Made by a program: the position numbers and the translations under genes
Notes under the pieces: model-generated
Databases searched by the model: none
Seen by the model: the letters and a program-made list of their open reading frames with translations, nothing else
What the model was told of the DNA's origin: nothing
In this document: piece after piece, positions 13,222 through 33,683 of the stretch
Layout: each line of letters starts with the position of its first letter
Numbering within the stretch: the first letter of the stretch is position 1
DNA from: Pedococcus sp. 5OH_020
Lineage (GTDB): Bacteria; Actinomycetota; Actinomycetes; Actinomycetales; Dermatophilaceae
Length of the DNA stretch: 64,000 bases
Direction of reading: 5' to 3'
NCBI RefSeq assembly: GCF_027812955.1
Contig: NZ_JAPYZV010000005.1
Location: 248,001-312,000 of the forward strand

Positions 13222-14118
13222 TCAGGCAGCCACCTGGACGGCCTGCCCCGAGCGGCCTTCGAGCAGGGCCTTGGAGTGCTCCACCTCGAGTGGCACGGGA
13301 CGGCGGCGTGCCAGCGCCAGGGGCGAGCGGAGCGCTGCCTGCGCAAGGCCTGCCCGGCCCTCCGGCCCCTGACGTACGACGTCCCGCGTCACCTGCGCCA
13401 CTGTCCGCCAGCGGCGGCGCATGAGCGCGGTCAGCACCCGGTTGCGGGCGGCGAGGGTCTCCCGGGCGCGACGGTGGCCCGCGTCGCGGTCCGGCGAAGG
13501 GTGGTGGTGCGCGACCACCGCCTCGACGTACGACAGGCCCCAGCCGAGTCCCGCCAGGTCCAGGGCGAGCCGTTCCTCCTCTCCCATGAAGAACACCACG
13601 GGGTCGAAGCCGCCCGCCTGCAGGAACGCCTTCCGGCGAACCACCGCAGCGCATGCGACGAAACCCAGGATCGACGGACCCGGGAGGTCCGGCGCCGTTC
13701 CCAGCGGGGACCGGGCCAGCTCCTGCGACACCGGGTCGAGACGCTCCTGCGGGCCTACGAGGGTGCGGCCGGCCAGCAGTCCCAGGCGAGGGTGGTCGCG
13801 GAACACCGTCGCAGCGAGGTCCAGGGCTTCGGGCGCCCACCACGAGTCGTCGTCGGCGAAGGCGACGAACGGCGTGGTGGCGCACTGCACCCCCACGTTG
13901 CGGGCCACGGCTCCGCGGTTGCGCCGCAGCTCGACGACCCGTACGTCGGGGAACTCGTCGCGAACCCGCTCCGGGGTCCCGTCGCTGGAGTGGTTGTCGA
14001 CCAGGACGACCGGACCCTCGTGGTGACGCAGAGACTCACGCAGCTGGGGCCACCGGTCCCGGGTGGCCACCACGGTCGTCACCGCAGCGGCCGACTGCTG
14101 TCCGGGCGTGTTACCCAT
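13222..14118 (-). CDS. Family 2 glycosyltransferase
   Basis: This is a 298-residue GT-A enzyme. The N-terminal strand TTVVATRDRWPQL, the acidic DNHSSDGT turn, the metal-binding AFADDDSWW near residue 92 and the later FFMGEEERLALDLA are in GT2 order. The C-terminus is helical and basic, with no clear membrane segment. It overlaps the upstream aldehyde dehydrogenase by 8 bases, so the two are co-transcribed. The pair diverges from the heptose operon, placing it in the same glycan locus. Donor and acceptor are unknown. A 13-bp direct repeat (AAGGCTCAGGCAG) with 20-bp period flanks its stop codon. Confidence 0.88.
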   Translation of the reverse strand: MGNTPGQQSAAAVTTVVATRDRWPQLRESLRHHEGPVVLVDNHSSDGTPERVRDEFPDVRVVELRRNRGAVARNVGVQCATTPFVAFADDDSWWAPEALDLAATVFRDHPRLGLLAGRTLVGPQERLDPVSQELARSPLGTAPDLPGPSILGFVACAAVVRRKAFLQAGGFDPVVFFMGEEERLALDLAGLGWGLSYVEAVVAHHHPSPDRDAGHRRARETLAARNRVLTALMRRRWRTVAQVTRDVVRQGPEGRAGLAQAALRSPLALARRRPVPLEVEHSKALLEGRSGQAVQVAA

Positions 14119-15526
14119 CGCGGAGCTCCGAACTCACCGGCTCCCAGTGCACGGCCTTGAGCTGGGTCAGCTCCCCGAGCAGGTCCGGCCCGTAGCCGCG
14201 CCCCTGGCCGCTGGCGCGCCGTGGGTCGGCAGAACCTCCGGGGGCCCCGCCGAAGACCGCGTTGACCTTGACGGTGCCGACGTCCAGCACCTCGACGGCC
14301 TCCATCGCATGCTGGGGGTCTGCGGTCAGGACGGTGGCGGCCAGCCCGTAGCGCCCGCTGTCCGCCTCCCACAGCGCCTCCTGCCAGCTCGGGACGCGCA
14401 TGACGGGTGCGACCGGGCCGAAGGTCTCCTCGTCCATGACCGCCATCCCGGGCCTGCAGCCGGTCAGCACCGTCGGGGCGTACCACGCTCCCGGCAGGTC
14501 CAGCCGCCGAGCTCCCGTCAGGGCGGAGGCACCGGCCTCGAGGGCCGACTCGACCTGCTGCTCCACCACGTGTAGCTGGCGCTCGTCCACCAGCCGGCAC
14601 AGCGTCGTCTCGGGTGCGCGAGGGTCCCCCGGGCGCAGCTCCTCTGCCACCCGGACCAGCTCTTCCAGCACCGCGTCCGCCACCGCCTCGTGCAGGTAGA
14701 CCCTCTCGACCGAGGTGCACAGCTGTCCTGCGTTGGTGAAGGCGCCGATGGCGATCTGCTCGGCAGCCCACCGCGGATCCACCCCGGCGTCCACCAGGAG
14801 CGCGTCCTTGCCGCCGTTCTCGACGATCGCCTTGGCGCCCCTGGCCGCGCACTGCTGCCTGATCCACGCGCCCGTGGCGCTGCTACCGACATGCGCGACG
14901 ACGTCGACGCGCGGGTCCTGCACGAGCAGGGCACCCACCGCGCCGTCTCCCGACAGCAGCTGCAGCACGCCGTCCGGCAGGCAGCCGGCGACCAGCCGCG
15001 CGAGCTGGAGCCCTGGCTCCAGGCTGCGCTCGGAGGGCTTGTGGACCACCGTGTTGCCGGTGACGAGCGCCGCAGCGAGCAAGCCCGCGGCAGCGGGGTA
15101 GGGGTCGTTCCAGGGGGTCAGCACAGCGACGACGCCGCGGGGCTCGGCTCTCACCCAGTCCAGCGCGCCGCTCCCGCCCGCAAGCGTCCGCCCGGTGGCA
15201 CCCAGACCGGTGACGGCCGCCTCGTCGAGCAGCTCGGCGGCGACGAGGGCGGAGCCGCGCGCGTCGCGCAGCAGCTTGCCGGTGGTGTCGCACAGCGCGC
15301 CGGCGAGGTCGTCGGCGTGCGCGCGGACCTGTGCTGCCGCCTCGCGCAAGGCAGCGGCGCGGTCGCCCGGGGAGGTCCGGCGCCAGCCGCGCGCGGCATC
15401 GGCGGCGCCCTCGACGGCCGCCGCGACCTGCGCTGCGCCTGCCGCCTCGGCGGCGTCTGGTGCATCCGCGGCGTCAAGGGCAGGTGAAGGGACGGGGGTG
15501 TCCTGGGGCGTCAGGGTAGTGGTCAC
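14111..15526 (-). CDS. NAD(P)+-dependent aldehyde dehydrogenase
   Basis: The protein has 471 residues from GTG 15526 (an ATG 21 codons upstream would read into the candidate operator region). The cofactor-loop segment TPWNDPYP and HKPSERS, the general base Glu in VENGGKDALL (usually ELGGK) and the catalytic Cys in NAGQLCTS are present in order, followed by MDEETFGPV. An Ala/Asp-rich N-terminal extension of about 30 residues precedes the fold. It overlaps the GT2 start and diverges from the carbamoyltransferase. It may oxidise a sugar aldehyde for the glycan; the substrate is unknown. Confidence 0.88.
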   Translation of the reverse strand: MTTTLTPQDTPVPSPALDAADAPDAAEAAGAAQVAAAVEGAADAARGWRRTSPGDRAAALREAAAQVRAHADDLAGALCDTTGKLLRDARGSALVAAELLDEAAVTGLGATGRTLAGGSGALDWVRAEPRGVVAVLTPWNDPYPAAAGLLAAALVTGNTVVHKPSERSLEPGLQLARLVAGCLPDGVLQLLSGDGAVGALLVQDPRVDVVAHVGSSATGAWIRQQCAARGAKAIVENGGKDALLVDAGVDPRWAAEQIAIGAFTNAGQLCTSVERVYLHEAVADAVLEELVRVAEELRPGDPRAPETTLCRLVDERQLHVVEQQVESALEAGASALTGARRLDLPGAWYAPTVLTGCRPGMAVMDEETFGPVAPVMRVPSWQEALWEADSGRYGLAATVLTADPQHAMEAVEVLDVGTVKVNAVFGGAPGGSADPRRASGQGRGYGPDLLGELTQLKAVHWEPVSSELRDG

Positions 15527-15588
15527 GCGTGCACCCTGCCCCAGGAACCGCTGGTCAAAACGTCCAGCCACGACCGTCGCCAGGGGCA

Positions 15589-15632
15589 CGGAGAAGCGTT
15601 TCTCCGCAGGACCGAATAGAAGCGGTTCTCCC
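15589..15632. promoter_or_regulatory. Tandem palindromic operator candidates in a divergent promoter region
   Basis: CGGAGAAGCGTTTCTCCG (15589-15606) is an inverted repeat of seven base pairs around GCGT. A second copy, TAGAAGCGGTTCTCCC (15617-15632), keeps the AGAA-N4-TTCT core. Core centres lie 26 bp apart. They sit 17 bases or more upstream of the carbamoyltransferase ATG and 63 bases upstream of the aldehyde dehydrogenase GTG, so one regulator could control both operons. No regulator gene for this site is identified. Confidence 0.55.
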
Positions 15633-15648: not shown

Positions 15649-17334
15649 ATGCGAGTTCTGGGAGTCAACGCGCTGTTTCACGACCCCTCCGCCGCCCTCG
15701 TGGTGGACGGTCGGATCGTCGCGGCCGCCGAGGAGGAACGGTTCAGCAGGCGCAAGCACGGCAAGCGCCCGGTGCCCTTCTCCGCGTGGGAGCTGCCCGA
15801 GCAGGCCATGAGGTGGTGCCTGGCCGAGGCCGGGCTCCGCCCACAGGATCTCGACGTCGTCGCCTACTCCTTCGACCCGTCACTCGCCAAACCTGCCGAG
15901 GACATGGGCCTGGACGACCCCTGGGACCACCTGCGGCGGGTGTACGCCGAGTCCGCCCCGGGCTTCCTGTGCACCGCGCTGCCGGGGCTCGACCGGGACC
16001 GGGTGCGGTTCGTCCCGCACCACGTCGCCCACGCCGCGTCCGCCGCGCTGGCGACCCCCGTGACCGGGCCCGGGCGCAGCACGAGCGTGCTCGTCCTCGA
16101 CGGGCGAGGCGAACAGGCGTCGCACCTGGCCGGCCGGTACCACGACGGCCGCCTGGACACGCTTGCGGCGCAGGCTCTGCCGCACTCCCTGGGCCTGCTC
16201 TACGAGTCGCTCACCGACCACCTCGGGTTCCTGCGGTCCAGTGACGAGTTCAAGGTCATGGCGCTGGCGTCCTACGGCAAGCCCGTCCACGCGGAGCAGC
16301 TGCGCGGCATGATCCGAGCCACGGGCGACGGCGGGTTCACCGCACCGGTGCCCGACTGGACGGCCTTCGCGCCGCGACGTCACGGCGGCGAGACCGACTG
16401 GCCGCCGCTGTACGCCGACCTCGCCTGCTCGGTGCAGGTGGTGCTCGAGGAGGTGCTGGTCAACCTGGCGCGATGGCTGCACGACCAGACCGGAGACCGG
16501 GTGCTCACGATGGCCGGGGGCACCGCGCTCAACTGCGTGGCGAACAGCCGGATCTGGCGGGAGACGCCCTTCGAGGAGGTCTGGGTCCAGCCCGCCGCCG
16601 GTGACGCCGGGACGTCCCTCGGCGCGGCCCTGCAGGCAACGCTGGAGGGCGACGCCGGCCTGGGTGACGACGGCCGTCTGCCCGAGCCCATGACGACCGC
16701 CGCGCTGGGACGGCAGTGGAGTGACGACGACCTGGCCGCGTGGCTGCACTCCGCCGCCGTACCGTTCACGACGCCGGAGGACCTCGCCGGCGAGGCGGCG
16801 GACATTCTCGCCGGCGACGGGGTGCTGGCCTGGTTCGACGGCCGCAGCGAGTTCGGCCCGCGCGCACTCGGTCACCGGTCCCTGATGGCGCACCCGGGGC
16901 GCGCGTCGAACCTCGAGCGGCTCAACGACGTCAAGGGCCGCGAGCAGTTTCGCCCCGTCGCGCCGATGGTGCTAGCGGACCGGGCGGCCGAGATCTTCGG
17001 GGACGGCCCGCTCCCAAGCCCGTACATGCTGTTCGTCCACTCGGTCTCACCGCAGTGGCGCGACCGCATCCCCGCAGTCGTGCACGTGGACGGCACCGCA
17101 CGCATCCAGACCATCGACGACGAGACCACCCCACACGTCGCGGCCCTCCTGCGGGCCTTCGAGGAGCGCACGGGACTCCCCGTGGTGGTCAACACGAGCC
17201 TCAACACGGCGGGGCGGCCCATGGTCGACGACCCCCGCGACGCGCTGGAGCTCTTCGGATCGGCCCCCGTGGACGCGATGGTGGTGGGTCCTCATCTCGT
17301 GCGCCGGTCGGCGCTCTTCGGCGGTGGTCGGTGA
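15649..17334 (+). CDS. NodU/CmcH-family carbamoyltransferase
   Basis: The protein has 561 residues. The N-terminal YrdC/Kae1-like half starts MRVLGVNALFHDPSAAL and contains HHVAHAASA near residue 124, which provides metal-binding histidines in this family, and LDGRGEQ near 152. The C-terminal half has WFDGRSEFGPRALGHRS, NDVKGREQFRPVAPM and VNTSLNTAGRPMV, all family blocks. These enzymes transfer a carbamoyl group from carbamoyl phosphate (via carbamoyl-AMP) to a hydroxyl, often on a sugar. It leads the eight-gene heptose operon, and its stop overlaps the next GTG. It probably decorates the glycan; the acceptor is inference. Confidence 0.92.
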   Translation: MRVLGVNALFHDPSAALVVDGRIVAAAEEERFSRRKHGKRPVPFSAWELPEQAMRWCLAEAGLRPQDLDVVAYSFDPSLAKPAEDMGLDDPWDHLRRVYAESAPGFLCTALPGLDRDRVRFVPHHVAHAASAALATPVTGPGRSTSVLVLDGRGEQASHLAGRYHDGRLDTLAAQALPHSLGLLYESLTDHLGFLRSSDEFKVMALASYGKPVHAEQLRGMIRATGDGGFTAPVPDWTAFAPRRHGGETDWPPLYADLACSVQVVLEEVLVNLARWLHDQTGDRVLTMAGGTALNCVANSRIWRETPFEEVWVQPAAGDAGTSLGAALQATLEGDAGLGDDGRLPEPMTTAALGRQWSDDDLAAWLHSAAVPFTTPEDLAGEAADILAGDGVLAWFDGRSEFGPRALGHRSLMAHPGRASNLERLNDVKGREQFRPVAPMVLADRAAEIFGDGPLPSPYMLFVHSVSPQWRDRIPAVVHVDGTARIQTIDDETTPHVAALLRAFEERTGLPVVVNTSLNTAGRPMVDDPRDALELFGSAPVDAMVVGPHLVRRSALFGGGR

Positions 17335-18884
17335 GCGCCCCGACCCGCCCGGAGGACACCTATGCCGTCGTCGTGCCGAGCCTCGCGCGGCCGAGCCTGG
17401 AGGTGATGCTCCGCTCGCTGGCCGGCCAGGACGGGCCGCTGCCCGAGGAGGTCGTCGTCGTCGACGACCGCCCGAACCCCGAGCCCGCTGCGGCCGTGCC
17501 GGAGACGCTGCTCGAGCGGTTGCCGGTGCGGGTCGTCCAGGGACTGGGGCGGGGGCCGGCGGCAGCCCGGAACCTCGGATGGCACGTGGTGAAGGCGCCA
17601 TGGGTGGTCTTTCTGGACGACGACATCGTCCTGCCACCGACCTGGGCCGACGAGCTGGCCGGCGACCTCCGTGTGGCCGGACCCACGGTGGCCGGGAGCT
17701 CCGGGCGCATCGTCGTACCCCTTCCGGCCGAGCGCCCGCCGACCGACTGGGAACGCTCCACAGCCGGTCTGCAGGACGCCCGCTGGGCCACCGCCGACAT
17801 GGCCTACCGGCGCCAGGCCCTGCAGGACGTCCACGGTTTCGACGAGCGGTTCCCGCGGGCCTACCGGGAGGACGCTGACCTTGCCCTGCGCGTCAGGAGG
17901 GCAGGCTGGACCCTGGTACGGGGCTCGAGAAGCATCCGCCACCCTGTACGGCCGGCAAGCGCCGGCGTCAGCCTGGCGGTGCAGCGGGGAAACTCCGACG
18001 ACGCGCTGATGCGCCGGCTGCACGGGCCGCACTGGCGGCTGCTGGCAGAGACCGGCCGGGGGCGCCTGCCCTGGCACGTCGCCACCCTGGCCGCGGCTGC
18101 GGCTGGAGTCTCGGGACTCGCGGCCTCGGAAGCCTCGCTGGCCCGGCGACGCTCGGGTTCCCTACGCCGCACAGGGTATGCCGGGATCCTGGGCTGGCTG
18201 GTACTCACCGCTGACTTCACCTGGCGACGTACCAAGGCCGGTCCCCGTGACCGGAGCGAGCTCACGCGCATGCTCTGGACGAGCGCCGCCATCCCGCCGG
18301 CGGCCGTCTGGCACCGGCTTCGCGGATGGTGGCGCCACCGGGGGGCCCCGCCGTGGCCCCCAGCGCCCAGAGCCGTGCTCTTCGACCGTGACGGGACCCT
18401 GGTCCACGACGTGCCGTACAACGGTGAGCCGGCGAGGGTACGGCCGGTCGCCGGTGCGGCGGACTCGGTGCGCAGGCTGCGTGCCCACGGGTTGCGGCTG
18501 GGGGTCGTCAGCAACCAGTCGGGGGTGGCCCGGGGTCTGCTCACGGCCTCGCAGGTCGCGGAGGTCAACGCCGAGGTCCAGGCCCAGGTCGGCGTCTTCG
18601 ACACCTGGCAGGTCTGCGTCCACGGCCCGGCCGACGACTGCGACTGCCGCAAGCCACGCCCGGGCATGATCCACGCCGCGGCGCGAGAGCTGCGGCTGCG
18701 GCCGCAGGACTGCGTGGTCGTCGGTGACATCGAGGCGGACGTCCTGGCCGCCCGCGCGGCCGGGGCCCGTTCGGTCCTCGTGCCCACCGGGGCGACGCGA
18801 GCAGAGGAGGTGGCGGCGGCGCCCCATGTGGCAGCCGACCTCACCGAAGCGGTCGACCTGATCCTGGGGTGGACCCGTGGCTAG
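17331..18884 (+). CDS. Fusion: GT2 glycosyltransferase + GmhB-like heptose bisphosphate phosphatase (HAD-IIIA)
   Basis: This 517-residue protein has two domains. Residues 1 to about 250 are a GT2 with VVFLDDDIVLP and a REDADLALRVRRAGW acceptor-site block. Residues about 348-510 are a HAD-IIIA phosphatase: LFDRDGT (nucleophile D352, D354), SNQSGVARG, and the zinc-binding C429-x-H431...C437-x-C439 followed by RKPRPGM, all diagnostic of GmhB/HisB-N enzymes. GmhB removes the 7-phosphate from D-glycero-D-manno-heptose 1,7-bisphosphate. GTG 17331 overlaps the previous stop. A mixed Ala/Arg-rich helical linker joins the domains. Confidence 0.88.
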   Translation: MSAPTRPEDTYAVVVPSLARPSLEVMLRSLAGQDGPLPEEVVVVDDRPNPEPAAAVPETLLERLPVRVVQGLGRGPAAARNLGWHVVKAPWVVFLDDDIVLPPTWADELAGDLRVAGPTVAGSSGRIVVPLPAERPPTDWERSTAGLQDARWATADMAYRRQALQDVHGFDERFPRAYREDADLALRVRRAGWTLVRGSRSIRHPVRPASAGVSLAVQRGNSDDALMRRLHGPHWRLLAETGRGRLPWHVATLAAAAAGVSGLAASEASLARRRSGSLRRTGYAGILGWLVLTADFTWRRTKAGPRDRSELTRMLWTSAAIPPAAVWHRLRGWWRHRGAPPWPPAPRAVLFDRDGTLVHDVPYNGEPARVRPVAGAADSVRRLRAHGLRLGVVSNQSGVARGLLTASQVAEVNAEVQAQVGVFDTWQVCVHGPADDCDCRKPRPGMIHAAARELRLRPQDCVVVGDIEADVLAARAAGARSVLVPTGATRAEEVAAAPHVAADLTEAVDLILGWTRG

Positions 18885-20031
18885 GCCGCCGGGAGGGACC
18901 ACCACCGGTGCACAGACCTCCGCACCGACCGCCAGGCGGGGCAGGACCCTGGCGGTGCGGCTCGACAGCGACGGCGACGTCCTGCTGACCGGGCCTGCCC
19001 TGCGCGCCCTGGCTGCGGGAAGCGACGGCGTCGACCTCCTGGTCTCGCCCGCTGGTGTCGCCGCGGCCCGACTGCTCCCCGGCGTCCGAGACGTGCTGGT
19101 CTTCGACGCGCCGTGGAGCGGGCACACGCCTCCTCCCGTGGACGCCGTCGCCCTCGGCGGGCTCGTGCAGACCCTCGCGGACCGGCGCTACGCCGACGCG
19201 GTGATCTTCACGTCGTACCACCAGAGCCCCTTGCCCATGGCCCTCCTCGCACGGATGGCGGGGGTGCCTCGCGTCAGCGCGATGAGCGAGGACTACCCGG
19301 GCTCTCTGCTGGACCTTCGGGAGCGTCGTCTTCCTCAGGGCGACGATGACGGCGGTCCCGGGGGCGGCCACGAGGTCCTGGCGGCCCTGCGGCTCGCCGA
19401 ACGCGCCGGTTTCCCCCGCCCGCAGCACGACGACGGACGGCTGAGGGTGCACGTCCCCTCCGCAGATCCGGACCTGCGACTACCCGGCCCGTACGTGGTC
19501 CTGCATCCGGTGGCCAGCGTGCCGAGCCGCTCGATCGACCCCCGGCATGCCGCGGAGATCGCGCATGCGCTCTCGCGGGAGGGCTGGCGGGTGGTGCTCA
19601 CCGGCACCGCTGACCAGCGGGCGGAGACCCGCGCGATCTCCGGTCCGGGGGTGCGCGACCTGGTGGGCCGCACCACCTTCGGCCAGCTCGCCCGGGTCCT
19701 GGCCGACGCTGCGTGCGTCGTGGTGGGCAACACGGGGCCGGCGCATCTGGCGGCGGCCGTGGGCACACCGGTGGTGAGCCTCTTCTCCCCCGTCGTCCCC
19801 GTCGAGCGCTGGGGTCCCTGGGGGGTGCCCGCGCTCGTCCTGGGCGACCAGCAGGCCGCCTGTCGCGGCACGCGGGCGCGGGAGTGCCCGCTGCCGGGTC
19901 ATCCCTGCCTCGGCACCGTGACGGCGGGAGAGGTGGTGGGTGCGGTGCGCCAGCTCGCCGGGACACCGGGGGGCTCAGGCAGCACGCAGGCCACGGGCCT
20001 TCCCGCACGGGTGGCGGGAGGTGTCCGGTGA
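18877..20031 (+). CDS. Family 9 glycosyltransferase (heptosyltransferase-like)
   Basis: The protein has 384 residues from GTG 18877, overlapping the previous gene by 8 bases. The N-terminal AVRLDSDGDVLLTGPALRAL is the GT9 variant of the 'R-x-D-x-(I/V)-GD' start seen in ADP-heptose:LPS heptosyltransferases. The C-terminal domain has VVLHPVASVPSR, VVLTGTADQ and VVGNTGPAHLAAAVGTPVVSLF, the donor-binding block of GT9. Gram-positive cells lack LPS, so the acceptor must be another glycan, lipid or protein. Its place among NDP-heptose genes supports heptose as donor sugar, which is inference. Confidence 0.87.
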   Translation: MARPPGGTTTGAQTSAPTARRGRTLAVRLDSDGDVLLTGPALRALAAGSDGVDLLVSPAGVAAARLLPGVRDVLVFDAPWSGHTPPPVDAVALGGLVQTLADRRYADAVIFTSYHQSPLPMALLARMAGVPRVSAMSEDYPGSLLDLRERRLPQGDDDGGPGGGHEVLAALRLAERAGFPRPQHDDGRLRVHVPSADPDLRLPGPYVVLHPVASVPSRSIDPRHAAEIAHALSREGWRVVLTGTADQRAETRAISGPGVRDLVGRTTFGQLARVLADAACVVVGNTGPAHLAAAVGTPVVSLFSPVVPVERWGPWGVPALVLGDQQAACRGTRARECPLPGHPCLGTVTAGEVVGAVRQLAGTPGGSGSTQATGLPARVAGGVR

Positions 20032-21008
20032 AGGTCCTGCTCTGGCATGTGCACGGCTCCTGGACGACCAGCTTCGTCTCCGGCTCCCACGAGTACGTGC
20101 TGCCCGTCGTCGCGGACCGCGGGCCGGACGGACGTGGGCGGGCGCGGACGTGGGACTGGCCTGCGGCGGCCCGTGAGGTGCCTCTGGAGCGCCTGGGCGA
20201 GGAGGAGATCGACGTCGTGGTGCTGCAGCGGCCTCACGAGGCCCAGCTGCTTGCGCGGCATACCGGGCTTCGCGCGGGCCAGGACGTCCCCGCGGTGTAC
20301 CTGGAGCACAACGCCCCCACCGAGCACGCCGTCCGGAGTGTGCACCCTGTGGTGCAGGACAGCGCGCTGGCGGGGCTGCCGGTCGTGCACGTCACTCGGT
20401 TCAACGCCATGGCCTGGGACTGCGGTGAGGCGCGCACCGTGGTGGTCGACCACGGCATCCCCGACCCGGGCCCTCTGTACACCGGCGACGACCCGAGCGT
20501 CGCCGTGGTCGTCAACGAGCCGGTCCGACGCTGGCGGGTGGCCGGGACGGACCTCGTCCTGGACCTTGCGCGGCACGCGCCGCTGCACGTCTACGGCATG
20601 GGCACCGACCAGCTGGCCGAGGTGGCCGCGGAGCACGGAGCCCCGTCGCTGGTGGGAGCGGTCCACGACCTGCCGCAGCACGAGCTGCACGGCGCCATGG
20701 CGCGGCACCGCTGCTACTTCCACCCCTACCGCTGGACCAGCCTGGGCCTCTCGCTCCTGGAGGCCATGACGCTCGGGATGCCGGTGCTCGCCCTTTCCAC
20801 CACCGAGGCGCCGGCGGCCGTCCCGGCGGAGGCCGGTGTGGTGAGCAACGACCTCGACCTGCTGCGTCGCACCGCGCTGCGGTGGCTGGCCGACCCCCAA
20901 GAAGCGCGAGACCGTGGCCTCGCCGGCCGCGCCCATGCCCTCGCCCACTACGGGCTCGAGAGGTTCCTGACCGACTGGGACCTCATCCTGAAGGAGGTAG
21001 CACGATGA
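20028..21008 (+). CDS. GT4-like (GT-B) glycosyltransferase
   Basis: This is a 326-residue protein starting VKVLLWHVHGSWTTSF at GTG 20028, which overlaps the preceding stop (GTGA). Visible blocks are VYLEHNAP, VVVDHGIPDP and the C-terminal SLGLSLLEAMTLGMPVLAL, the donor-site E-x7-E region of GT4 enzymes. The N-terminal domain is shorter than in typical GT4 enzymes. It overlaps the next gene by 4 bases. It is probably a cytosolic transferase adding one residue of the operon's glycan. Specificity cannot be read from sequence. Confidence 0.75.
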   Translation: MKVLLWHVHGSWTTSFVSGSHEYVLPVVADRGPDGRGRARTWDWPAAAREVPLERLGEEEIDVVVLQRPHEAQLLARHTGLRAGQDVPAVYLEHNAPTEHAVRSVHPVVQDSALAGLPVVHVTRFNAMAWDCGEARTVVVDHGIPDPGPLYTGDDPSVAVVVNEPVRRWRVAGTDLVLDLARHAPLHVYGMGTDQLAEVAAEHGAPSLVGAVHDLPQHELHGAMARHRCYFHPYRWTSLGLSLLEAMTLGMPVLALSTTEAPAAVPAEAGVVSNDLDLLRRTALRWLADPQEARDRGLAGRAHALAHYGLERFLTDWDLILKEVAR

Positions 21009-22831
21009 AGATCGCGATGATCTCCGAGCACGCCAGCCCGCTCGCGGCGCTGGGCGGAGTGGACGCCGGCGGGCAGAACGTGCACGTCGACGCCCTCGCC
21101 CGCGGCCTCGCTCGGCGGGGCCACCAGGTCGAGGTCTACACACGCCATGAGTCCGCGGACCAGCCCGAGCGGGTCACGCTCGAGCCAGGAGCCACGGTCG
21201 TCCACGTCCCGGTGGGACCCGCGCATCCAGTACCCAAGGACGAGCTGCTCCCCCTGATGGACGACTTCGGCCGGTGGGTCGAGGCGGACTGGGAGCGCCA
21301 CGGCGACCCGGCCGTCGTCCATGCCCACTTCTGGATGTCGGGCCTCGCCGCCCTGCAGGCCGGCCGCGCCCGCGGGGTGGCGGTGGTCCAGACGTTCCAC
21401 GCGCTCGGCAGCGTCAAGCGCCGGTTCCAGGGAGCGGCAGACACCAGCCCGCGGCAGCGGCTGCACCTCGAGCGCACCATCGCCCGGGACGTCGACCTGG
21501 TAGTCGCGACGTGCGCCGACGAGGTGGCAGAGCTGGAGCACATGCAGGTCGCCACGCGGCACGTCCGCGTGATCCCCTGTGGCGTCGACACGGCGCACTT
21601 CACGCCCGACGGCGCCGCGTCCCCGCACGCCCGGACCCGCCTGCTGCTGGTCGGCAGGATGGTGGAGCGCAAGGGCTTCGACGTCGCCATCAGGGCTCTG
21701 GCGGAGCTGCCTGGCACCGTGGAGCTCGTCATCGCCGGCGGTCCCCCTGCCGACCTCCTCGACGAGGACCCCGAGGCGCGGCGGCTCCGCGCCGTGGCCC
21801 GCGAGGCGGGGGTCGAGGACCGGGTGCTCATGACGGGGCAGCTCGACCACGCCCAGATGCCGGCGGTCTACCGGTCCGCGGACATCGTGCTCGCCACACC
21901 CTGGTACGAGCCCTTCGGCATCACGCCCCTGGAAGCCGCCGCCTCCGGCCGCCCCGTGGTCGGCAGTGCGGTCGGTGGCCTGCTCGACTCGGTCGTCGAC
22001 GGGGAGACCGGCCGGCTGGTGCGGCCCAAGGACCCCCAGGCCCTGGCCGACGGCATCCGGGAGCTCCTGGCTGACCCTGCCCTGGCACGCCAATGGGGCC
22101 GCAGCGCGCGGGCGCGCGCCGTCGCGCGGTACGACTGGTCGGTCGTCACCGCGCAGACCGAACGCGCGCTCGTGGAGGCGGTGTCGAGAGCCGGCAGCCA
22201 GCCCCAGCCCAGCCTGGACCGGACGAGGAGCTGGCTGGAGGCGCACGCGCGCGAGTTCCAGGACGGGATGCAGAGCCTGCTCGCCCAGCACGCGCTGGTC
22301 CGCCAGTGGGGGGAGCAGCTCGCGACCTGCCTGGTGGGAGGCGCCAAGCTGCTCGCCGCGGGGAACGGTGGAAGCGCGGCCGAGGCGCAGCACCTCACCG
22401 CCGAGCTGGTCGGGCGCTTCTGCGGGGAGCGGCGACCGCTCTCGGCGCTTTCCCTGTGCGCCGAGACCTCCAGCCTGACCGCGATCCTCAACGACTACGG
22501 AGCCGAGGAGATCTTCGCGCGTCAGGTCGAGGCGCACGGGCGGCCGGGCGACATCCTGGTGCTGCTCTCCACGAGTGGGACCAGCGGCAACGTGGTGCAC
22601 GCAGCCAAGCGCGGCCACGAGCTGGGTCTGCAGGTGTGGGCCCTGACCGGGCCGGCACCCAACCCCCTGGCCGCGCTCGCCGACGAGGCTCTGACGATCA
22701 CCGCCGGCTCGACCGCTGCGGTGCAGGAGGTGCACCTGGCGGCCGTCCACGCGATCTGTGCGGCCATGGATGCCACCCTGCAGGCCCGAGGTGAGCTGCT
22801 GTCGCCGAGCGCCCGGGAGGCGAGCGCGTGA
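21005..22831 (+). CDS. Fusion: GT4 glycosyltransferase + GmhA-like sedoheptulose-7-phosphate isomerase (SIS)
   Basis: This 608-residue protein has two domains. Residues 1 to about 400 form a GT4 with the glycine loop LGGVDAGGQNVHV, the donor loop GRMVERKGFD and YEPFGITPLEAAASG. Residues from about 415 form a SIS domain: GNGGSAAEAQHL (near 454-465), LLSTSGTSGNVVHA and the helix QEVHLAAVHAICAAMD. These are the GmhA blocks, including the Glu and His proposed for isomerisation of sedoheptulose 7-phosphate. AAGGAGG sits 8 bases before ATG 21005, which overlaps the previous stop. The fusion joins the first heptose step to a transferase. Confidence 0.9.
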   Translation: MKIAMISEHASPLAALGGVDAGGQNVHVDALARGLARRGHQVEVYTRHESADQPERVTLEPGATVVHVPVGPAHPVPKDELLPLMDDFGRWVEADWERHGDPAVVHAHFWMSGLAALQAGRARGVAVVQTFHALGSVKRRFQGAADTSPRQRLHLERTIARDVDLVVATCADEVAELEHMQVATRHVRVIPCGVDTAHFTPDGAASPHARTRLLLVGRMVERKGFDVAIRALAELPGTVELVIAGGPPADLLDEDPEARRLRAVAREAGVEDRVLMTGQLDHAQMPAVYRSADIVLATPWYEPFGITPLEAAASGRPVVGSAVGGLLDSVVDGETGRLVRPKDPQALADGIRELLADPALARQWGRSARARAVARYDWSVVTAQTERALVEAVSRAGSQPQPSLDRTRSWLEAHAREFQDGMQSLLAQHALVRQWGEQLATCLVGGAKLLAAGNGGSAAEAQHLTAELVGRFCGERRPLSALSLCAETSSLTAILNDYGAEEIFARQVEAHGRPGDILVLLSTSGTSGNVVHAAKRGHELGLQVWALTGPAPNPLAALADEALTITAGSTAAVQEVHLAAVHAICAAMDATLQARGELLSPSAREASA

Positions 22832-24282
22832 GCCGCCGAGGCAGGGTCGTCGTCGTCGGCGACGTGGTGGTGGACCGCGACCTCGTGGGTCGGGTGGAGC
22901 GCCTCTGCCCGGATGCGCCCGTGCCGGTCGTCGACGTGGACTCCGAGTCGGCCGGTCCAGGCGGGGCGGGGCTGAGCGCGCTGCTGTGCGTGCAGCCCGG
23001 CGTCGAGGTCACCCTCGTCGCGCCGTTCGCGGACGACGCGCCCGCCCGGCTGCTGCGGGACGCGTTCGAGCAGGCCGGCGTGCGCGTGCTGGGCCTGGCT
23101 CAGGACGGCGCAACCCGGTGCAAGACCCGGGTCCGCAGCGGCGGGCAGTCGCTGCTGCGCGTCGACGAGGGCGGCCCCGCGCGCCCTCTCGGCCCTCTCC
23201 CGGCCGAGGCGGTGAGGGCGCTGGAGTCGGCCGACGTAGTACTCGTCTCCTGTTACGGCGCGGGTATGTCGGCTCACGAGCAGCTTCGCGAGGTGCTCAC
23301 CGCCCGCGCGGGCCACCACCCGGTCGTCTGGGACCCCCACCCCCGCGGTCCCCGCCCCATCCCTGGGTGCGCCCTCGTCACGCCGAACCTCGACGAGGCC
23401 AGGGCCGCGGCCGGTCTGCCGACCGCGCCGCCCGACGAGGTCGCCCGCGAGCTGGTCCGGCTGTGGTCGGCGAAGGCGGTCTGCGTGACCACCGGAGCCA
23501 CCGGGGCCTGGCTCGCCACGACCGCCGGAGAGCCGGTGTATGCGCCCACCACGGCCGTGGACGGCGATGTCTGCGGGGCCGGCGACGCCTTCGTCGCGGC
23601 GGCCGTCACCGCCCTCGCAGGCGCCAGCACGACGAGTGAGGCCGTCAGCGCCGCCGTACTTCAGGCCCGTGGCTGGGTCCAGGCCGGTGGCACGTCAGGT
23701 TTCCGAGAGCGCCGCGCCCGGCACGACGACCGCACGCCGGTCTCCCACCCTGACGGGTCCGCTGCGGGTTCCGCTGGTCGCTCGACAGGCCGTTCCGCTG
23801 CGTTCTCCCGTGCCGCGTCCGCCGGCGCTGGACAGCCGGAGTCCGCCATGGACCTCGTACGACGCGTCCGGGCGGAGGGAGGAACTGTAGTGGCGACCGG
23901 TGGCTGCTACGACATCCTGCACGCCGGCCACGTCTCGTGCCTGGAGGCAGCCCGCCGCCTCGGGGACGCCCTGGTCGTGCTCATCAACTCCGACGACAGC
24001 GTCCGACGGCTCAAGGGCGAGGGGCGCCCGGCGCAGCCGGCGGAGGACCGTGCCACCGTTCTACGCGGACTGGCCTGCGTCGATGCCGTCGTGGTGTTCG
24101 ACGAGGACAGCCCGGCGGAGGCTCTGGACGCACTGCGCCCCGACCTCTGGGTGAAGGGCGGCGACTACGAGGGAGCGGACCTTCCCGAGGCCGCGCAGGT
24201 CCGCAGCTGGGGCGGCAGGGTCGTCCTGGTCCCCTACCTGTCAGGCCATTCGACGACGGCCATCCTGGCCGCCGCACCGTGA
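22828..24282 (+). CDS. hldE: Bifunctional heptose kinase/nucleotidyltransferase (HldE/RfaE-like)
   Basis: The protein has 484 residues. The PfkB-type kinase half has DAPVPVVDVD near residue 30 and CGAGDAF near 250 (catalytic Asp); HldE kinases phosphorylate heptose 7-phosphate at C1. A Ser/Ala/Gly-rich linker of about 50 residues follows. The nucleotidyltransferase half has YDILHAGHVSCLEAA near 362 (HxGH), INSDDSVRRLKGEGRP and WVKGGDY, matching HldE adenylyltransferases. Both active sites look intact. GTG 22828 overlaps the GmhA-fusion stop. With GmhA and GmhB alongside, the product should be an NDP-heptose; ADP is likely by homology. Confidence 0.9.
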   Translation: MSRRGRVVVVGDVVVDRDLVGRVERLCPDAPVPVVDVDSESAGPGGAGLSALLCVQPGVEVTLVAPFADDAPARLLRDAFEQAGVRVLGLAQDGATRCKTRVRSGGQSLLRVDEGGPARPLGPLPAEAVRALESADVVLVSCYGAGMSAHEQLREVLTARAGHHPVVWDPHPRGPRPIPGCALVTPNLDEARAAAGLPTAPPDEVARELVRLWSAKAVCVTTGATGAWLATTAGEPVYAPTTAVDGDVCGAGDAFVAAAVTALAGASTTSEAVSAAVLQARGWVQAGGTSGFRERRARHDDRTPVSHPDGSAAGSAGRSTGRSAAFSRAASAGAGQPESAMDLVRRVRAEGGTVVATGGCYDILHAGHVSCLEAARRLGDALVVLINSDDSVRRLKGEGRPAQPAEDRATVLRGLACVDAVVVFDEDSPAEALDALRPDLWVKGGDYEGADLPEAAQVRSWGGRVVLVPYLSGHSTTAILAAAP

Positions 24283-24295
24283 GCGAGGAGACAGC

Positions 24296-24994
24296 ATGAG
24301 TGAGCAGCGTGACCTGGGAGTCGTCTACATCACGGGAGGTTCCAGTGGCCTGGGGGCGGCGCTCGTCGCGGCCGTCGAGAAGGCCGGCGGAGTCCCCGCG
24401 GTTATCGACCGGGTCGCCCCGGAGGACGCCACCATCGCCCACGCCGTGGCGGACCTGGCGGACACCGAGGCGGCACACCAGGCCGTCGCGGAGCTGGTGT
24501 CGACCGTCGGACCACCCCAGGCTGTCGTGACCGCGGCCGGCACGGACGCCTGCGGCCCGCTCGCCGAGATCGACGCGCAGACGTGGGAACGCGTTGTCCG
24601 CGTCAACCTCTTCGGCACGGCCGCCGTCATCCGGGCCTGCCTGCCGCACCTCGAGCGCACTCGGGGCACCGTCGTGACGGTGGCCTCCACGCTGGGCCTT
24701 CGGCCGGCAGGTGACGCCACGGCATACTGCGCCTCGAAGTTCGGCGTGGTCGGGTTCACGCGCGCCCTGGCCATGGAGCTCGCCGGCCGGGTCGGCGTCA
24801 CCCTCCTTGTCCCGGGAGGGATGCGGACGCACTTCTTCGACGGTCGCACGGAGCAGTACCGGCCTGGGCCCGACGCGCAGCTGAGCGACCCGGCGGACGT
24901 CGCCCACGCGGTGCTCTCGGCGCTCCAGATGCCCGTGGGCTGCGAGGTCCGTGAGCTGGTGGTGGCCACCTCCACCGAGCCCTCCTGGCCGTGA
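24296..24994 (+). CDS. Short-chain dehydrogenase/reductase
   Basis: This is a 232-residue classical SDR. TGGSSGLGAALV (TGxxxGxG) is near residue 14, AAGTDACGPL replaces the usual NNAG, and the catalytic Ser in VASTLGL and YCASK (Y-x3-K) are present. GAGGAG precedes ATG 24296. It is the only operon member not overlapping its predecessor (13-bp gap), but it overlaps the following GT9 gene (GTGA). It is not an extended SDR of the HldD type, so it is unlikely to be the ADP-heptose 6-epimerase. It may reduce or oxidise a sugar intermediate. Confidence 0.85.
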   Translation: MSEQRDLGVVYITGGSSGLGAALVAAVEKAGGVPAVIDRVAPEDATIAHAVADLADTEAAHQAVAELVSTVGPPQAVVTAAGTDACGPLAEIDAQTWERVVRVNLFGTAAVIRACLPHLERTRGTVVTVASTLGLRPAGDATAYCASKFGVVGFTRALAMELAGRVGVTLLVPGGMRTHFFDGRTEQYRPGPDAQLSDPADVAHAVLSALQMPVGCEVRELVVATSTEPSWP

Positions 24995-25965
24995 GCACCC
25001 CGGCGGGCACCGTCCTCGCGCTGCGCGCGCTGGGCCTGGGGGACGCACTCACCGGCGTGCCCGCGTTGCGCGGGCTACGCCGGGCGTTCCCCCGGGCCCG
25101 CCTGGTGCTGGCCGGCCCGGCGACCCTCTCCACGTGGCTGCGAGACCTCGGCGTCGTGGACGCGGTGCTACCCACCGAGGGGCTGACGGCCCTCGCCTGG
25201 ACCGGCCCACCGCCGGACGTCGCCGTCAACCTGCACGGGCGAGGTCCGCAGAGCCACAACCTCTTGCGCGCCCTGCGCCCAGGGCGGCTCATCGCCTTCA
25301 GGCCACCCGAGGCCTCCCCCGCGGACGGTCCGCCGTGGCCCGAGAACGACCACGAGGTCGAACGCTGGTGTGCGTTGGCCCGCTGGGCTGGTGGATGGTG
25401 TGACGCCGAGGACCTCCGCCTACCCCCGCTGCCGCGCGCCCCGCATGTCGTCGTCCATCCCGGTGCTGCGTCGCCCTCGCGGCGCTGGGCAGCCGAGCGG
25501 TGGGCCGCCGTCGTCGCCGCGCTCGCAGCAGACGGTCACGACGTGGTCGTGACCGGCACGCCCTCGGAAGCCGAGCTCTGCGCGCAGGTGGCCGCTGCGG
25601 ACCCCCGGGCCGTCGACGGCTGCGGTCGCTACGACGTGGCGGCCCTCGCGCAGCTCGTGGGCTCCGCCGCACTGGCGCTCTGCGGGGACACCGGGGTCGC
25701 GCACCTCGCCACCGCCTACGGGACGCCGTCGGTGCTGCTCTTCGGGCCGACCCCTGCGAGGACCTGGGGGCCGCTGGTCGACCCGCAGCTGCACAAGGTG
25801 CTGTGGCACCCGCGACCGGGAGACCCGCCCGGGGACCCGCACGGCGCCACGACGGACGTCCGGCTGGCCCGAACCACGGTATCCGAGGTCCTGGCCGCCG
25901 CATCCGAGCTACTGGCCAGCCTGCTGGACCCAGTCGTCAGCCGGCCTCGAGCTCCACTCCCCTGA
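24991..25965 (+). CDS. Second family 9 glycosyltransferase (heptosyltransferase-like)
   Basis: This 324-residue GT9 begins TVLALRALGLGDALTGVPALRGLR, the classical start that includes the catalytic-region Asp of heptosyltransferases. Later blocks are VVVHPGAASPSRRW (phosphate/nucleotide binding) and LCGDTGVAHLATAYGTPSVLLFGPT. It matches WaaC/WaaF-type enzymes more closely than the first GT9 of the operon. GTG 24991 overlaps the SDR stop. Its last 29 bases overlap the convergent UDP-xylose synthase-like gene, marking the operon's end. Confidence 0.9.
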   Translation: MSTPAGTVLALRALGLGDALTGVPALRGLRRAFPRARLVLAGPATLSTWLRDLGVVDAVLPTEGLTALAWTGPPPDVAVNLHGRGPQSHNLLRALRPGRLIAFRPPEASPADGPPWPENDHEVERWCALARWAGGWCDAEDLRLPPLPRAPHVVVHPGAASPSRRWAAERWAAVVAALAADGHDVVVTGTPSEAELCAQVAAADPRAVDGCGRYDVAALAQLVGSAALALCGDTGVAHLATAYGTPSVLLFGPTPARTWGPLVDPQLHKVLWHPRPGDPPGDPHGATTDVRLARTTVSEVLAAASELLASLLDPVVSRPRAPLP

Positions 25966-26878
25966 ACCACTCGACCGTGTGGGCCAGGCCCTGCTCCCAG
26001 GGGACGACCGGCTCCCACCCGAGCAGCCGACGGGCGAGGGTGGTGTCGGGTCGGCGGACCTTCGGGTCGTCGGTCGGCAGGTCGACGAGCTTGATCTCCG
26101 AGTCCGACCTGGTGGCGGCCAGGACGTCCTCGGCGATACGAAGGACTGACATCTCCTGGGGGTTGCCGATGTTCACCGGACCCGGATGGCCGGACTCCGC
26201 GAACGCCACGACGCCCGTGACGAGGTCGTCGACATAGCAGACGGAGCGGGTCTGCGAGCCGTCGCCGGCCACGGTGAGCGGCTGGTTGAGCAGCGCCTGG
26301 CGGATGAACGTCGGGATGGCGCGACCGTCGTACGGCCGCATGCGCGGCCCGTAGGTGTTGAAGATGCGGACGATGCCCGCGTCGACGCCCTCGCTGGTGC
26401 GGTACGCCGTCACCAGCGCCTCCCCGTACCGCTTGCCCTCGTCGTAGACCCCTCGCGGACCGATCGGGTTCACGTGCCCCCAGTAGTCCTCCGGCTGGGG
26501 GTGCACCTGGGGGTCGCCGTACACCTCGGAGGTGGACGCGAGCACCAGCCGGGCGCCCTTCTCCTTCGCCAGACCCAGGGCGTGCCAGGTGCCGACCGCA
26601 CCCACCTTGAGCGTGTCGATGGGCAGCTTGAGGTAGTCGACCGGCGAGGCCGGCGAGGCGAAGTGCAGGACCAGGTCGACCTTGCCGGGCACGTGCACGA
26701 AGTTCGTCACGTCACAGTGCACGAGCCGGAAACCTGGATGTGCCATGAGGTGCGCGACGTTGTCGGCACTACCCGTGACGAAGTTGTCCAGGCAGAGCAC
26801 CTCCGACCCGTTCTCCAGCAGCCTCTGGCACAGGTGGCTTCCCAGGAACCCTGCGCCACCGGTCACGACAACGCGCAC
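25937..26878 (-). CDS. UDP-glucuronate decarboxylase-like (UDP-xylose synthase) extended SDR
   Basis: The protein has 313 residues from GTG 26878, which has GGAGG 5 bases upstream. The NAD-binding GGAGFLGSHL (7-16), HFASPASPVDYL (72-83), STSEVYGDP, RGVYDEGKRYGE with Y145 and K149, and RMRPYDGRAIPTFI are diagnostic of UXS enzymes. They oxidise and decarboxylate UDP-glucuronate to UDP-xylose. It converges on the heptose operon with a 29-bp overlap, so a pentose may join the same glycan. It could instead act in a general nucleotide-sugar pool. Confidence 0.9.
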   Translation of the reverse strand: MRVVVTGGAGFLGSHLCQRLLENGSEVLCLDNFVTGSADNVAHLMAHPGFRLVHCDVTNFVHVPGKVDLVLHFASPASPVDYLKLPIDTLKVGAVGTWHALGLAKEKGARLVLASTSEVYGDPQVHPQPEDYWGHVNPIGPRGVYDEGKRYGEALVTAYRTSEGVDAGIVRIFNTYGPRMRPYDGRAIPTFIRQALLNQPLTVAGDGSQTRSVCYVDDLVTGVVAFAESGHPGPVNIGNPQEMSVLRIAEDVLAATRSDSEIKLVDLPTDDPKVRRPDTTLARRLLGWEPVVPWEQGLAHTVEWFRGVELEAG

Positions 26879-27516: not shown

Positions 27517-29094
27517 TCAGTTCGGGTGGTTGGTGAACAGGTCCGAGCTGCCCGCGCCGCTGTAGTTCAGGATCCGGAAGCGGTAGTAGCTCGCGCCGGC
27601 TCCGTTGTAGACGACCCGCTCCTTGTTCGACAGGGAGGTCGAGGCGGCGACCAGCACCCAGCTGCTGCCGTTCCACCGGTCGAGGAGGAGGTCGGTGTCC
27701 GTGCCGGCCGTGCCCTGGACCCAGCCCTGGATGTAGCCGGGGTTGGCCTGGTACCAGTACGAGCCGTCAGGCTGGACCGACTGCTGCCCGGAGAGCAGGT
27801 TGGAGTTCCACTTGCGGGCGAACAGGTTCGGCGACCCCGTGCCGGCCGAGTAGACCACGTTGCGGGCCGACGTCGACTTCAGCGCGTCGCTGACCAGCGC
27901 CGGGGTGGCGTACGGGTTCTGCTGGAGGTAGAGCGCCGCGAGGCCGGCCACGTGAGGTGACGCCATCGACGTGCCGCTGATGGTGTTGATGGCGGTGGTG
28001 CTGCCGATCCACGACGACGTGATGCTCTGACCGGGGGCGAAGATGTCCACGCATGGGCCGTAGTTGGAGAACCCGGCCTTGTAGTCGTACCCGCCCGAGT
28101 ACAGGGTCGCACCGACGGTGATCGCCGACGGGCTGGAGCCCGGCGACTGCGTGCAGGCGTCGGTCGCGGAGTTGCCCGCCGCGATGGCCCACGTGACGCC
28201 CTGTGCGGTCGAGCGTGCGACGGCGTCGTTGACGGCCGCGTTGTAGCCGCCACCGAGGCTGGCGTTCGCGACGGACGGACCGTTGTGGGTGTACGTCACG
28301 TAGTCCGCGCCGGCGATGAAGCCGGACCAGGACCCGCTGCCGCTGCAGTCCAGGACCCGCACCGCGGTGAGGGAGACCTGCTTGGCCACACCGTACGTGG
28401 CGCCACCGATGGTGCCCGCGACGTGCGTCCCGTGGCCGTTGCAGTCCTGGCCGTTGCCGCCCAGCGCGTCGAACCCGACAGTGGCCCGGCCACCGAACTG
28501 GCTGTGCGCGGTGTAGATGCCGGTGTCCACGACGTAGGCGCGGACGCCCAGACCGGTCGTGGTGTAGAGGTACTGGCCGTTGAGCCCGGTGCGCTGGTCG
28601 ATGCGGTCGATGCCCCACGTGGCGCCACCCTGGACCACCTGGGACGAGGGACCGGAGCTCTGCCGGACGCTGCCAGGGGCGACCCGGGCACTCGTCATCG
28701 GCGGTGTCGGCTTCGTGGCGACCGCGGTCACCTGGCCGTCCTGGGACACGTACTTGACCGACGCGTCGTGGCGGACCTTGGACAGCTGCGCCTTGGTCAG
28801 GGTCGCGGAGAAGCCGTCGATCGTGGCCGAGTACACGTGGCTCGTCTTGACGCCGAGGCGCTTCGCCGTCGCGGCGCCGCTGGCCCCGTCGTTGAGCACC
28901 ACGATGTACTTGTCGGCCAGCAGCTTTCCGCTGCTCGCCTTGAGCGGTGCCGTGTGGTCGGCCTGGGCCGGCCCCGCCGCACAGAGTGAGACGGCGGACA
29001 CCGTTGCAGCGAGGGCGAGAGCCCACGCGGTGCCACTGCGGTGACGAGCGGAACGAGGCGTCGCCTCGTCGGTGGGTGATGCTGTGACAGACAT
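27517..29094 (-). CDS. Secreted S8 subtilisin/proteinase K-like protease
   Basis: This 525-residue pre-pro-enzyme has a signal peptide (residues 1 to about 45, ending AQA), an I9-type inhibitor propeptide from about 60 to 127 (KYIVVLNDG...), and a catalytic domain with D190 (VVDTGI), H221 (GHGTHVAG), N308 (AAGN) and S376 (GTSMASPHVAG). Several Cys in the catalytic domain fit the disulfide-bonded proteinase K subfamily. A C-terminal beta-rich domain of about 110 residues (DTDLLLDRWNGSSW, YYRFRILNYSG) resembles PPC/bacterial prepeptidase domains. AGGAAAGG precedes the ATG. It is extracellular after self-processing. Confidence 0.93.
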   Translation of the reverse strand: MSVTASPTDEATPRSARHRSGTAWALALAATVSAVSLCAAGPAQADHTAPLKASSGKLLADKYIVVLNDGASGAATAKRLGVKTSHVYSATIDGFSATLTKAQLSKVRHDASVKYVSQDGQVTAVATKPTPPMTSARVAPGSVRQSSGPSSQVVQGGATWGIDRIDQRTGLNGQYLYTTTGLGVRAYVVDTGIYTAHSQFGGRATVGFDALGGNGQDCNGHGTHVAGTIGGATYGVAKQVSLTAVRVLDCSGSGSWSGFIAGADYVTYTHNGPSVANASLGGGYNAAVNDAVARSTAQGVTWAIAAGNSATDACTQSPGSSPSAITVGATLYSGGYDYKAGFSNYGPCVDIFAPGQSITSSWIGSTTAINTISGTSMASPHVAGLAALYLQQNPYATPALVSDALKSTSARNVVYSAGTGSPNLFARKWNSNLLSGQQSVQPDGSYWYQANPGYIQGWVQGTAGTDTDLLLDRWNGSSWVLVAASTSLSNKERVVYNGAGASYYRFRILNYSGAGSSDLFTNHPN

Positions 29095-29371
29095 GACTGA
29101 CCTTTCCTGATGGCGTCCCGGCGGAAGCCACCCGATGGGATGAGTTGTGACGGTCGGCGAGCCGCCGTCCTCCGCAGGCGTCCCCCGTCGGTCGCCGCGG
29201 CTGCCAGCACCGCGTGGCCCCTGCCCGTGGTGCTGTCGATGTGTACTGAAGTCCCGGAACCCGGTCCTTCCGGATCCCTTCGGACCCACACCACAAGAGG
29301 GGCGGGCGGGGTGGCTGATACCGCCGGAGAGAAAAAAGTCGAAGCGCGCCGCAGCAGAGCCCGGCCCGTAG

Positions 29372-33681: not shown

Positions 33682-33683
33682 CC

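Follow-up and report, generated by a model that had tools for sequence, protein, structure and literature searches.

Why would a bacterium that should lack lipopolysaccharide (LPS) carry every enzyme domain needed to make an activated heptose, a sugar familiar chiefly from Gram-negative LPS? The question is raised by an eight-gene operon of the actinobacterium Pedococcus sp. 5OH_020, at positions 15649-25965 of a 64,000-nucleotide stretch of contig NZ_JAPYZV010000005.1 (this whole stretch is called the window, and coordinates are its own unless another contig or locus is named). From domain content and gene order we propose that this is probably a heptose-bearing envelope-glycan operon of the cwg (cell wall glycan) type named in Streptomyces coelicolor. 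Its likely sugar is nucleoside diphosphate (NDP)-D-glycero-beta-D-manno-heptose, which would be placed with xylose and carbamoyl on an envelope glycan and not on LPS.

An operon of eight overlapping genes

Gene content and order are observed directly. All eight genes lie on the plus strand, with successive junction gaps of -4, -8, -4, -4, -4, +13 and -4 nucleotides, six of the seven being overlaps. With open reading frames and starts checked, the tightly packed operon described by the initial annotation is confirmed; every domain it had named is matched by Pfam and NCBIfam, and an SDR gene that it left unnamed precedes the last gene. Locus counts below refer to the best 80 of at least 495 relatives from a collection scan with the GT2-HAD protein as query; the fused GT2-HAD in these 80 loci is a consequence of that choice and not a finding.

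15649-17334, plus strand: O-carbamoyltransferase of the NodU/TobZ/GdmN type, cwgB-like (Pfam PF02543, PF16861; 74 of 80 loci)
17331-18884, plus strand: fusion of a GT2 glycosyltransferase and a GmhB-like HAD-IIIA phosphatase (P0002), cwgC- plus cwgD-like (Pfam/NCBIfam, solved relatives)
18877-20031, plus strand: GT9, heptosyltransferase-like (P0003), cwgE-like (PF01075, 5e-23; 75 of 80 loci)
20028-21008, plus strand: GT4-like glycosyltransferase, cwgF-like (PF00534/PF13692, C-terminal half only; 68 of 80 loci)
21005-22831, plus strand: fusion of a GT4 glycosyltransferase and a GmhA-like sedoheptulose-7-phosphate isomerase (SIS), cwgG- plus cwgH-like (Pfam/NCBIfam, structures)
22828-24282, plus strand: HldE-like heptose-7-phosphate kinase and heptose-1-phosphate nucleotidyltransferase (P0006), cwgI-like (TIGR02199, TIGR02198, alignment)
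24296-24994, plus strand: classical SDR oxidoreductase (PF00106; 49 of 80 loci, 37 of 54 uncut)
24991-25965, plus strand: GT9, heptosyltransferase-like (P0008), cwgJ-like (PF01075, 3e-23; 67 of 80 loci)

Correspondence with the cwg operon

By the kind and order of its domains, the operon is the counterpart of the S. coelicolor cwg operon, SCO6179-6190. The cited source for that operon as a vancomycin-induced sigma-E target is reportedly Hong, Paget and Buttner (2002). In published excerpts, cwg is a class II sigma-E target of 12 genes with its promoter 147 nucleotides before the first gene (PMC6767563, Tran et al. 2019); SCO6180-6183 are cwgB-E and SCO6185-6188 are cwgG-J, with cwgH (SCO6186) labelled a phosphoheptose isomerase and cwgI (SCO6187) a bifunctional synthase/transferase (PMC5839063), and cwgE is a putative heptosyl transferase, classed GT1 (PMC5882110).

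We compared the window with cwg through genomes G449 and G484 (loci L160 and L161), where twelve genes follow the order UXS (UDP-xylose synthase), carbamoyltransferase, GT2, HAD, GT9, GT4, GT4, SIS, HldE, GT9, GT2, GT2; a third locus, L159 in G362, holds the first nine of these and then reaches its contig end. GT2 and HAD are two adjacent genes in all three. The printed functions of cwgE, cwgH and cwgI fall at matching places in the order of L160 and L161, and the window keeps the nine middle cwg functions in cwg order, joining two pairs of them by fusion and adding an SDR, which has no match in L160 or L161. We infer from order, number and promoter that these genomes are Streptomyces, as well as the assignment of the letters A-L to single genes. 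In L160 a site matching the published promoter at 24 of 26 positions lies 148 nucleotides before the likely first start (chosen by its ribosome site); the best match in L161, upstream of UXS, differs at six of 26 positions, and none was found upstream of the first gene in L159.

A new, unreported operon was therefore rejected, and the novelty that the initial annotation had seen falls away: the gene set was already named in S. coelicolor and NDP-heptose already reported in actinomycetes, where, in the available excerpts, it feeds septacidin and hygromycin B in Streptomyces (PMC10221265; PMC11461863). In the partial texts covered, a connection between cwg and heptose beyond gene-level annotation was not found, including by a search pairing both terms.

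A full set of predicted heptose enzymes

Could the operon make an activated heptose? By sequence the set looks complete, as first claimed: isomerase, kinase, phosphatase and nucleotidyltransferase domains are all there with their active-site motifs. These are H463/E467, STSG and Q574/H582 in the GmhA-like domain (compared with solved relatives only, not family-wide), D352-R-D354, NQSG, C429-H431-C437-C439 and D466 in the GmhB-like domain, and GAGD253, H365-AG-H368 and STT in the HldE-like protein, all of which we take to have their usual catalytic roles. Alignments of 9 and 10 sequences show no variation in the HAD and HldE motifs beyond the last NQSG residues and the third STT residue. Solved structures related to the HAD domain are D,D-heptose 1,7-bisphosphate phosphatases, and those related to the SIS domain are phosphoheptose isomerases; the HldE-like halves match a kinase of heptose 7-phosphate and a putative cytidylyltransferase (5x9q, 4e84).

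When heptose-specific NCBIfam models, each with its own bit cut-off, were applied to the operon proteins, the HldE nucleotidyltransferase model (TIGR02199) was the sole one passed, at 182.9 bits against 181.5. The GmhA model reached 149 bits against a cut-off of 209, the HldE kinase model (TIGR02198) 148 against 345, and the GmhB model 121 against 178; with three of the four domains below heptose-specific cut-offs, a related substrate is possible. The sugar enzymes might thus have shifted to another ketose phosphate and yield a product without heptose, and the varying residue before STT fits this too, but all the activities are kept together with their metal and catalytic motifs, and the heptose domains co-occur with one another and with the GT9 genes, so that we regard such a shift as improbable. 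Among 68 HldE orthologues the residue before STT is R in 46, H in 9, Y in 7, L in 1 and unread in 5, although another search pattern read a few orthologues differently. Arginine there was tied to nucleotide promiscuity in an excerpted 2024 study (PMC11461863); because the window protein has H at this position, its nucleotidyltransferase may accept fewer nucleotides than arginine-bearing orthologues.

The operon holds five glycosyltransferase domains, in the order GT2, GT9, GT4, GT4, GT9. The two genes first called heptosyltransferase-like retain that description as far as the family goes, both proteins exceeding the Pfam GT9 cut-off. They fall below all NCBIfam heptosyltransferase cut-offs, and similarity to solved WaaC and WaaF covers mainly the C-terminal half (E-values 2e-7 to 8e-5), which is WaaF/WaaC-like in P0003 and 3tov/WaaC-like in P0008. 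An ADP-heptose-type donor motif (DTGxxHl...GP) aligns with WaaC in P0008 and is looser (NTGPAH) in P0003. The GT4 half of the GT4-SIS fusion has MshA and Tll1590 as its nearest models and structures, and the carbamoyltransferase has TobZ, GdmN and novobiocin carbamoyltransferase as solved relatives. A search for viral relatives of P0002 found none.

Conservation and co-occurrence

Are these genes kept together elsewhere? Conservation and co-occurrence could both be observed directly. The 80 loci are all from Actinomycetota, from Micrococcales through Acidimicrobiales and Thermoleophilia, and the cluster is phylum-wide. All four heptose domains occur in 66 of the 80, and in 50 of the 54 uncut loci. 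Among the four uncut exceptions, L082 and L111 have the missing HldE, with GT9a, GT4 and SDR, in an adjoining stretch, L102 likewise has carbamoyltransferase-SIS-HldE-SDR-GT9b there, and L067 lacks a local match only for SIS; counting adjoining stretches, 53 of 54 uncut loci hold all four. The window's 11-domain order on the plus strand recurs in 26 of the 54, the GT4-like gene stands on the other strand in some loci, and SDR is absent from 17 of the 54. GT4 and SIS share one frame in 7 of the 66 loci holding both domains and are separate in 59. In 10 of 66 loci (L042, L043, L045, L048, L055, L058, L071, L075, L086, L120) SIS and HldE share one open frame and may form a fusion with three activities.

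The initial annotation had proposed a neighbourhood search for the same gene order, and this search found it in many genera, which excludes chance as its cause. Within the window's own family, 119 genomes were searched and 14 stretches were taken from 12 of them, of which 11 hold the cluster (L031 and L032 cut by contig ends) and three (L037, L039, L040) hold a different HldE locus. Among the eleven, L033, L035 and L036 lack SDR, L036 also SIS and UXS, and L035 also GT9b; in L034 and L038 the GT4-like gene stands elsewhere. A quick carbamoyltransferase tree of 80 rows without outgroup clusters by order (14 changes against a shuffled mean of 42.2) and places the window, with support 100, beside a sequence from Tetrasphaera (Intrasporangiaceae) and two genomes of its own family; recent horizontal gain is not supported by this clustering.

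Co-occurrence was measured in 396 genomes of the phylum, the pair scan and the HldE scan being treated as one sample. The GT2-GmhB pair was counted in 28 genomes, 23 near full-length and 5 as adjacent pieces; 86 genomes matched the pair query and 58 were left out, most with one domain matching only, the strong ones among them being G235 (positions 26-498), G305, G245, G309, G131 and G316 (GT2 part, without an adjoining full match) and G320, G126 and G395 (HAD part). An HldE nucleotidyltransferase was found in 27 of the 28 pair-bearing genomes versus 24 of the 368 others (Fisher p 1e-26, relatedness not corrected), and 26 of the 27 matches lie within 7 kilobases of the pair, that in G432 being on another contig.

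LPS, HldD and a second heptose gene set

Could the heptose be bound for LPS after all? No LpxC was found in 20 cluster-bearing genomes (controls 4 of 14), and HldD over cut-off was found in none of the 37 from which those 20 were chosen (controls 2 of 14, with matches in E. coli and Caulobacter); both sets include the window's own genome. The expectation that this cell lacks LPS is thereby borne out, an LPS remnant was rejected, and, as judged by these gene searches, LPS is excluded as the destination.

Because a recognisable HldD is absent, the heptose would stay in the D,D form. It might instead be epimerised to the L-glycero form by an unrecognised enzyme, either the SDR encoded inside the operon or an epimerase scoring below cut-off, for example the one at C11:125507 of the window's own genome (G000), a TIGR02197 match of 129.6 bits (cut-off 274.6) in the region of the second heptose set described below. 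Set against the count of zero in 37 genomes and the lack of SDR in 17 uncut loci as well as in L160 and L161, we consider such a conversion quite unlikely and favour the D,D sugar.

The second gene set of this genome, which like the convergent UXS gene described below was no part of the initial annotation, occupies 77914-79386 (L023) and 155796-156860 (L024) of contig C11. Its HldE-like protein, whose nucleotidyltransferase scores 207.5 bits against 184.6 for the operon's, is encoded beside GT2 and GT9 genes, and some 76 kilobases away GT4 and epimerase genes accompany a HAD-SIS (GmhB-GmhA-like) fusion. Similar HldE loci are present in L039 and L040, and L037 has a further one.

Promoter and regulation

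Is the operon under envelope-stress control, as in Streptomyces? A strict sigma-E pattern occurs in 2 of 77 upstream regions, against a shuffle mean of 2.9, and fails to pick up even the site in L160. Once L160 had been seen, the pattern was relaxed; in this form it occurs in 16 of 77 regions, none of them the window's, against a mean of 7.8 and a highest value of 15 in 200 shuffles. According to an excerpt of PMC6767563, sigE-cseABC appears absent outside Streptomyces.

A proposed carbamoylated envelope glycan

What, then, would the operon make? We picture a short route in which the SIS domain would convert sedoheptulose 7-phosphate to heptose 7-phosphate, the HldE kinase would form the 1,7-bisphosphate, the HAD domain would release the 1-phosphate, and the HldE nucleotidyltransferase would yield NDP-D-glycero-beta-D-manno-heptose, with a convergent UXS gene presumably supplying UDP-xylose. 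The GT2, GT9, GT4, GT4 and GT9 domains, together with a nearby GT2, may build a short oligosaccharide in the cytoplasm, to which the two GT9 enzymes would add heptose. The carbamoyltransferase might cap a hydroxyl group, possibly one of heptose, in the way that WapO (PA5005) carbamoylates heptose in the LPS core of Pseudomonas aeruginosa (excerpt of PMC8005017). Two of the three heptose proteins are fused to transferases, and these fusions may link heptose synthesis to sugar transfer. Every reaction here, the order of addition and the linkage to the cell envelope are put forward as inferred.

The heptose could also end up in a small molecule, antibiotic-like or intracellular, as with septacidin or hygromycin B, and not in an envelope glycan. 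Such use of NDP-heptose in Streptomyces (excerpts of PMC10221265, PMC11461863), the related carbamoyltransferases that decorate antibiotics and the lack of a visible envelope-export gene in the operon would all suit this reading; however, the wide distribution of the cluster and a carbamoyltransferase tree that follows taxonomic orders are not what an antibiotic cluster typically shows, none of the eight genes is for an antibiotic scaffold, and the S. coelicolor counterpart is induced by vancomycin under sigma-E along with other envelope genes (excerpt of PMC6767563). We therefore think a small-molecule product unlikely and prefer the envelope glycan.

Besides the sub-threshold enzyme scores, several observations weigh against a heptose-bearing envelope glycan. 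A domain scan recognised no flippase or exporter, polymerase or lipid-carrier enzyme among the operon genes; of the cell-surface or secreted carbamoylated heptose glycoconjugate first suggested, the carbamoylated glycoconjugate remains probable by gene content, and "secreted" finds no such gene behind it. A crude hydropathy scan gave no clear membrane span in any window protein, three passing in a single scanning frame each. Membrane anchoring of the GT2-HAD protein was not seen in the window, where its linker fails a crude threshold that 13 of 80 orthologue linkers pass. The available text of PMC5839063 labels cwgD a dehydratase where gene order puts the phosphatase, and we find GT9 at the cwgE position versus the printed GT1. 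No sigma-E-type site stands in front of the window operon. G496, whose match lies at a contig end, has the GT2-GmhB pair without an HldE match; G309 keeps UXS, carbamoyltransferase and a GT2 piece and likewise gave no HldE match, so that either the cluster can do without heptose genes or it is breaking down in that genome; and in three (G245, G309, G287) of six genomes fetched from the L159-L161 group most of the cluster is missing from the fetched stretch. Finally, the second heptose gene set could feed or replace that of the window.

A broader possibility, which we hold tentatively, is that actinobacteria across the phylum use cwg to make an envelope oligosaccharide of D-glycero-D-manno-heptose, xylose and carbamoyl, which Streptomyces would produce under wall stress. 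If true, bacteria without LPS would bear an LPS-core-like sugar set in their envelope. Should heptose indeed be there, many soil actinobacteria would have in their envelope a sugar that innate immunity senses through ALPK1. The predicted NDP-heptose supply, UDP-xylose supply and carbamoyltransferase point to specific residues for mass spectrometry and to specific genes (cwgH, cwgI).

Flanking genes

Three neighbouring genes, all on the minus strand, complete the picture.

25937-26878, minus strand: UDP-glucuronate decarboxylase (UXS; P0009), cwgA-like (human UXS1 2b69, E 2e-106)
13222-14118, minus strand: GT2 glycosyltransferase (P0011), cwgK/L-like (homologous to the final two genes in the twelve-gene order)
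14111-15589, minus strand: aldehyde dehydrogenase, divergent from the operon (PF00171; homologues in 17 of 80 loci)

The UXS gene, whose start was inferred from a ribosome-site-like stretch and a gene caller, is convergent with the operon and overlaps its last gene by 29 nucleotides; in 53 of 80 loci a homologue lies near the cluster, in either orientation. Near 14 of 80 loci there is a gene family of which one member was scanned and identified as a UDP-glucose dehydrogenase, and these two neighbours together predict a supply of UDP-xylose. Against the two GT2 genes found in L160 and L161, P0011 shows 50-51% and 41-42% identity; its homologues occur in 35 of 80 loci. The aldehyde dehydrogenase is probably outside the pathway. 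Homologues of a polysaccharide pyruvyl transferase family gene (L047:7307-8287, one member scanned) occur near the cluster in 15 of 80 loci, suggesting further modification in some genera. Also in the window are a subtilase-family protease (Pfam S8) adjoining the cluster at 27517-29289 on the minus strand, and two large consecutive genes (458 and 665 amino acids) at 32305-35678 on the plus strand without a Pfam match at 1e-10.

Comparison with known systems

The closest likeness, the correspondence with cwg, is observed directly through L160 and L161: carbamoyltransferase, GT2, HAD, GT9, GT4, GT4, SIS, HldE and GT9 come in shared order, with UXS and a further GT2 nearby. The window differs in its GT2-GmhB and GT4-GmhA fusions and added SDR, in a UXS gene that is convergent (first in cwg), in a single further GT2 upstream on the other strand (two at the end in cwg), and in showing no recognisable sigma-E promoter. 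The septacidin and hygromycin B pathways, likened from excerpts of the papers without comparing clusters, share the actinomycete use of NDP-heptose, but their products are secondary metabolites. WapO, likened by description and not by sequence, is likewise a carbamoyltransferase beside heptosyltransferases, but it serves Gram-negative LPS. With the Gram-negative ADP-L-glycero-D-manno-heptose pathway (GmhA, HldE, GmhB, HldD; WaaC/WaaF) the window shares the first three enzymes and GT9 transferases, whereas it has neither HldD over cut-off nor LpxC, and its pathway domains are fused to GT2 and GT4.

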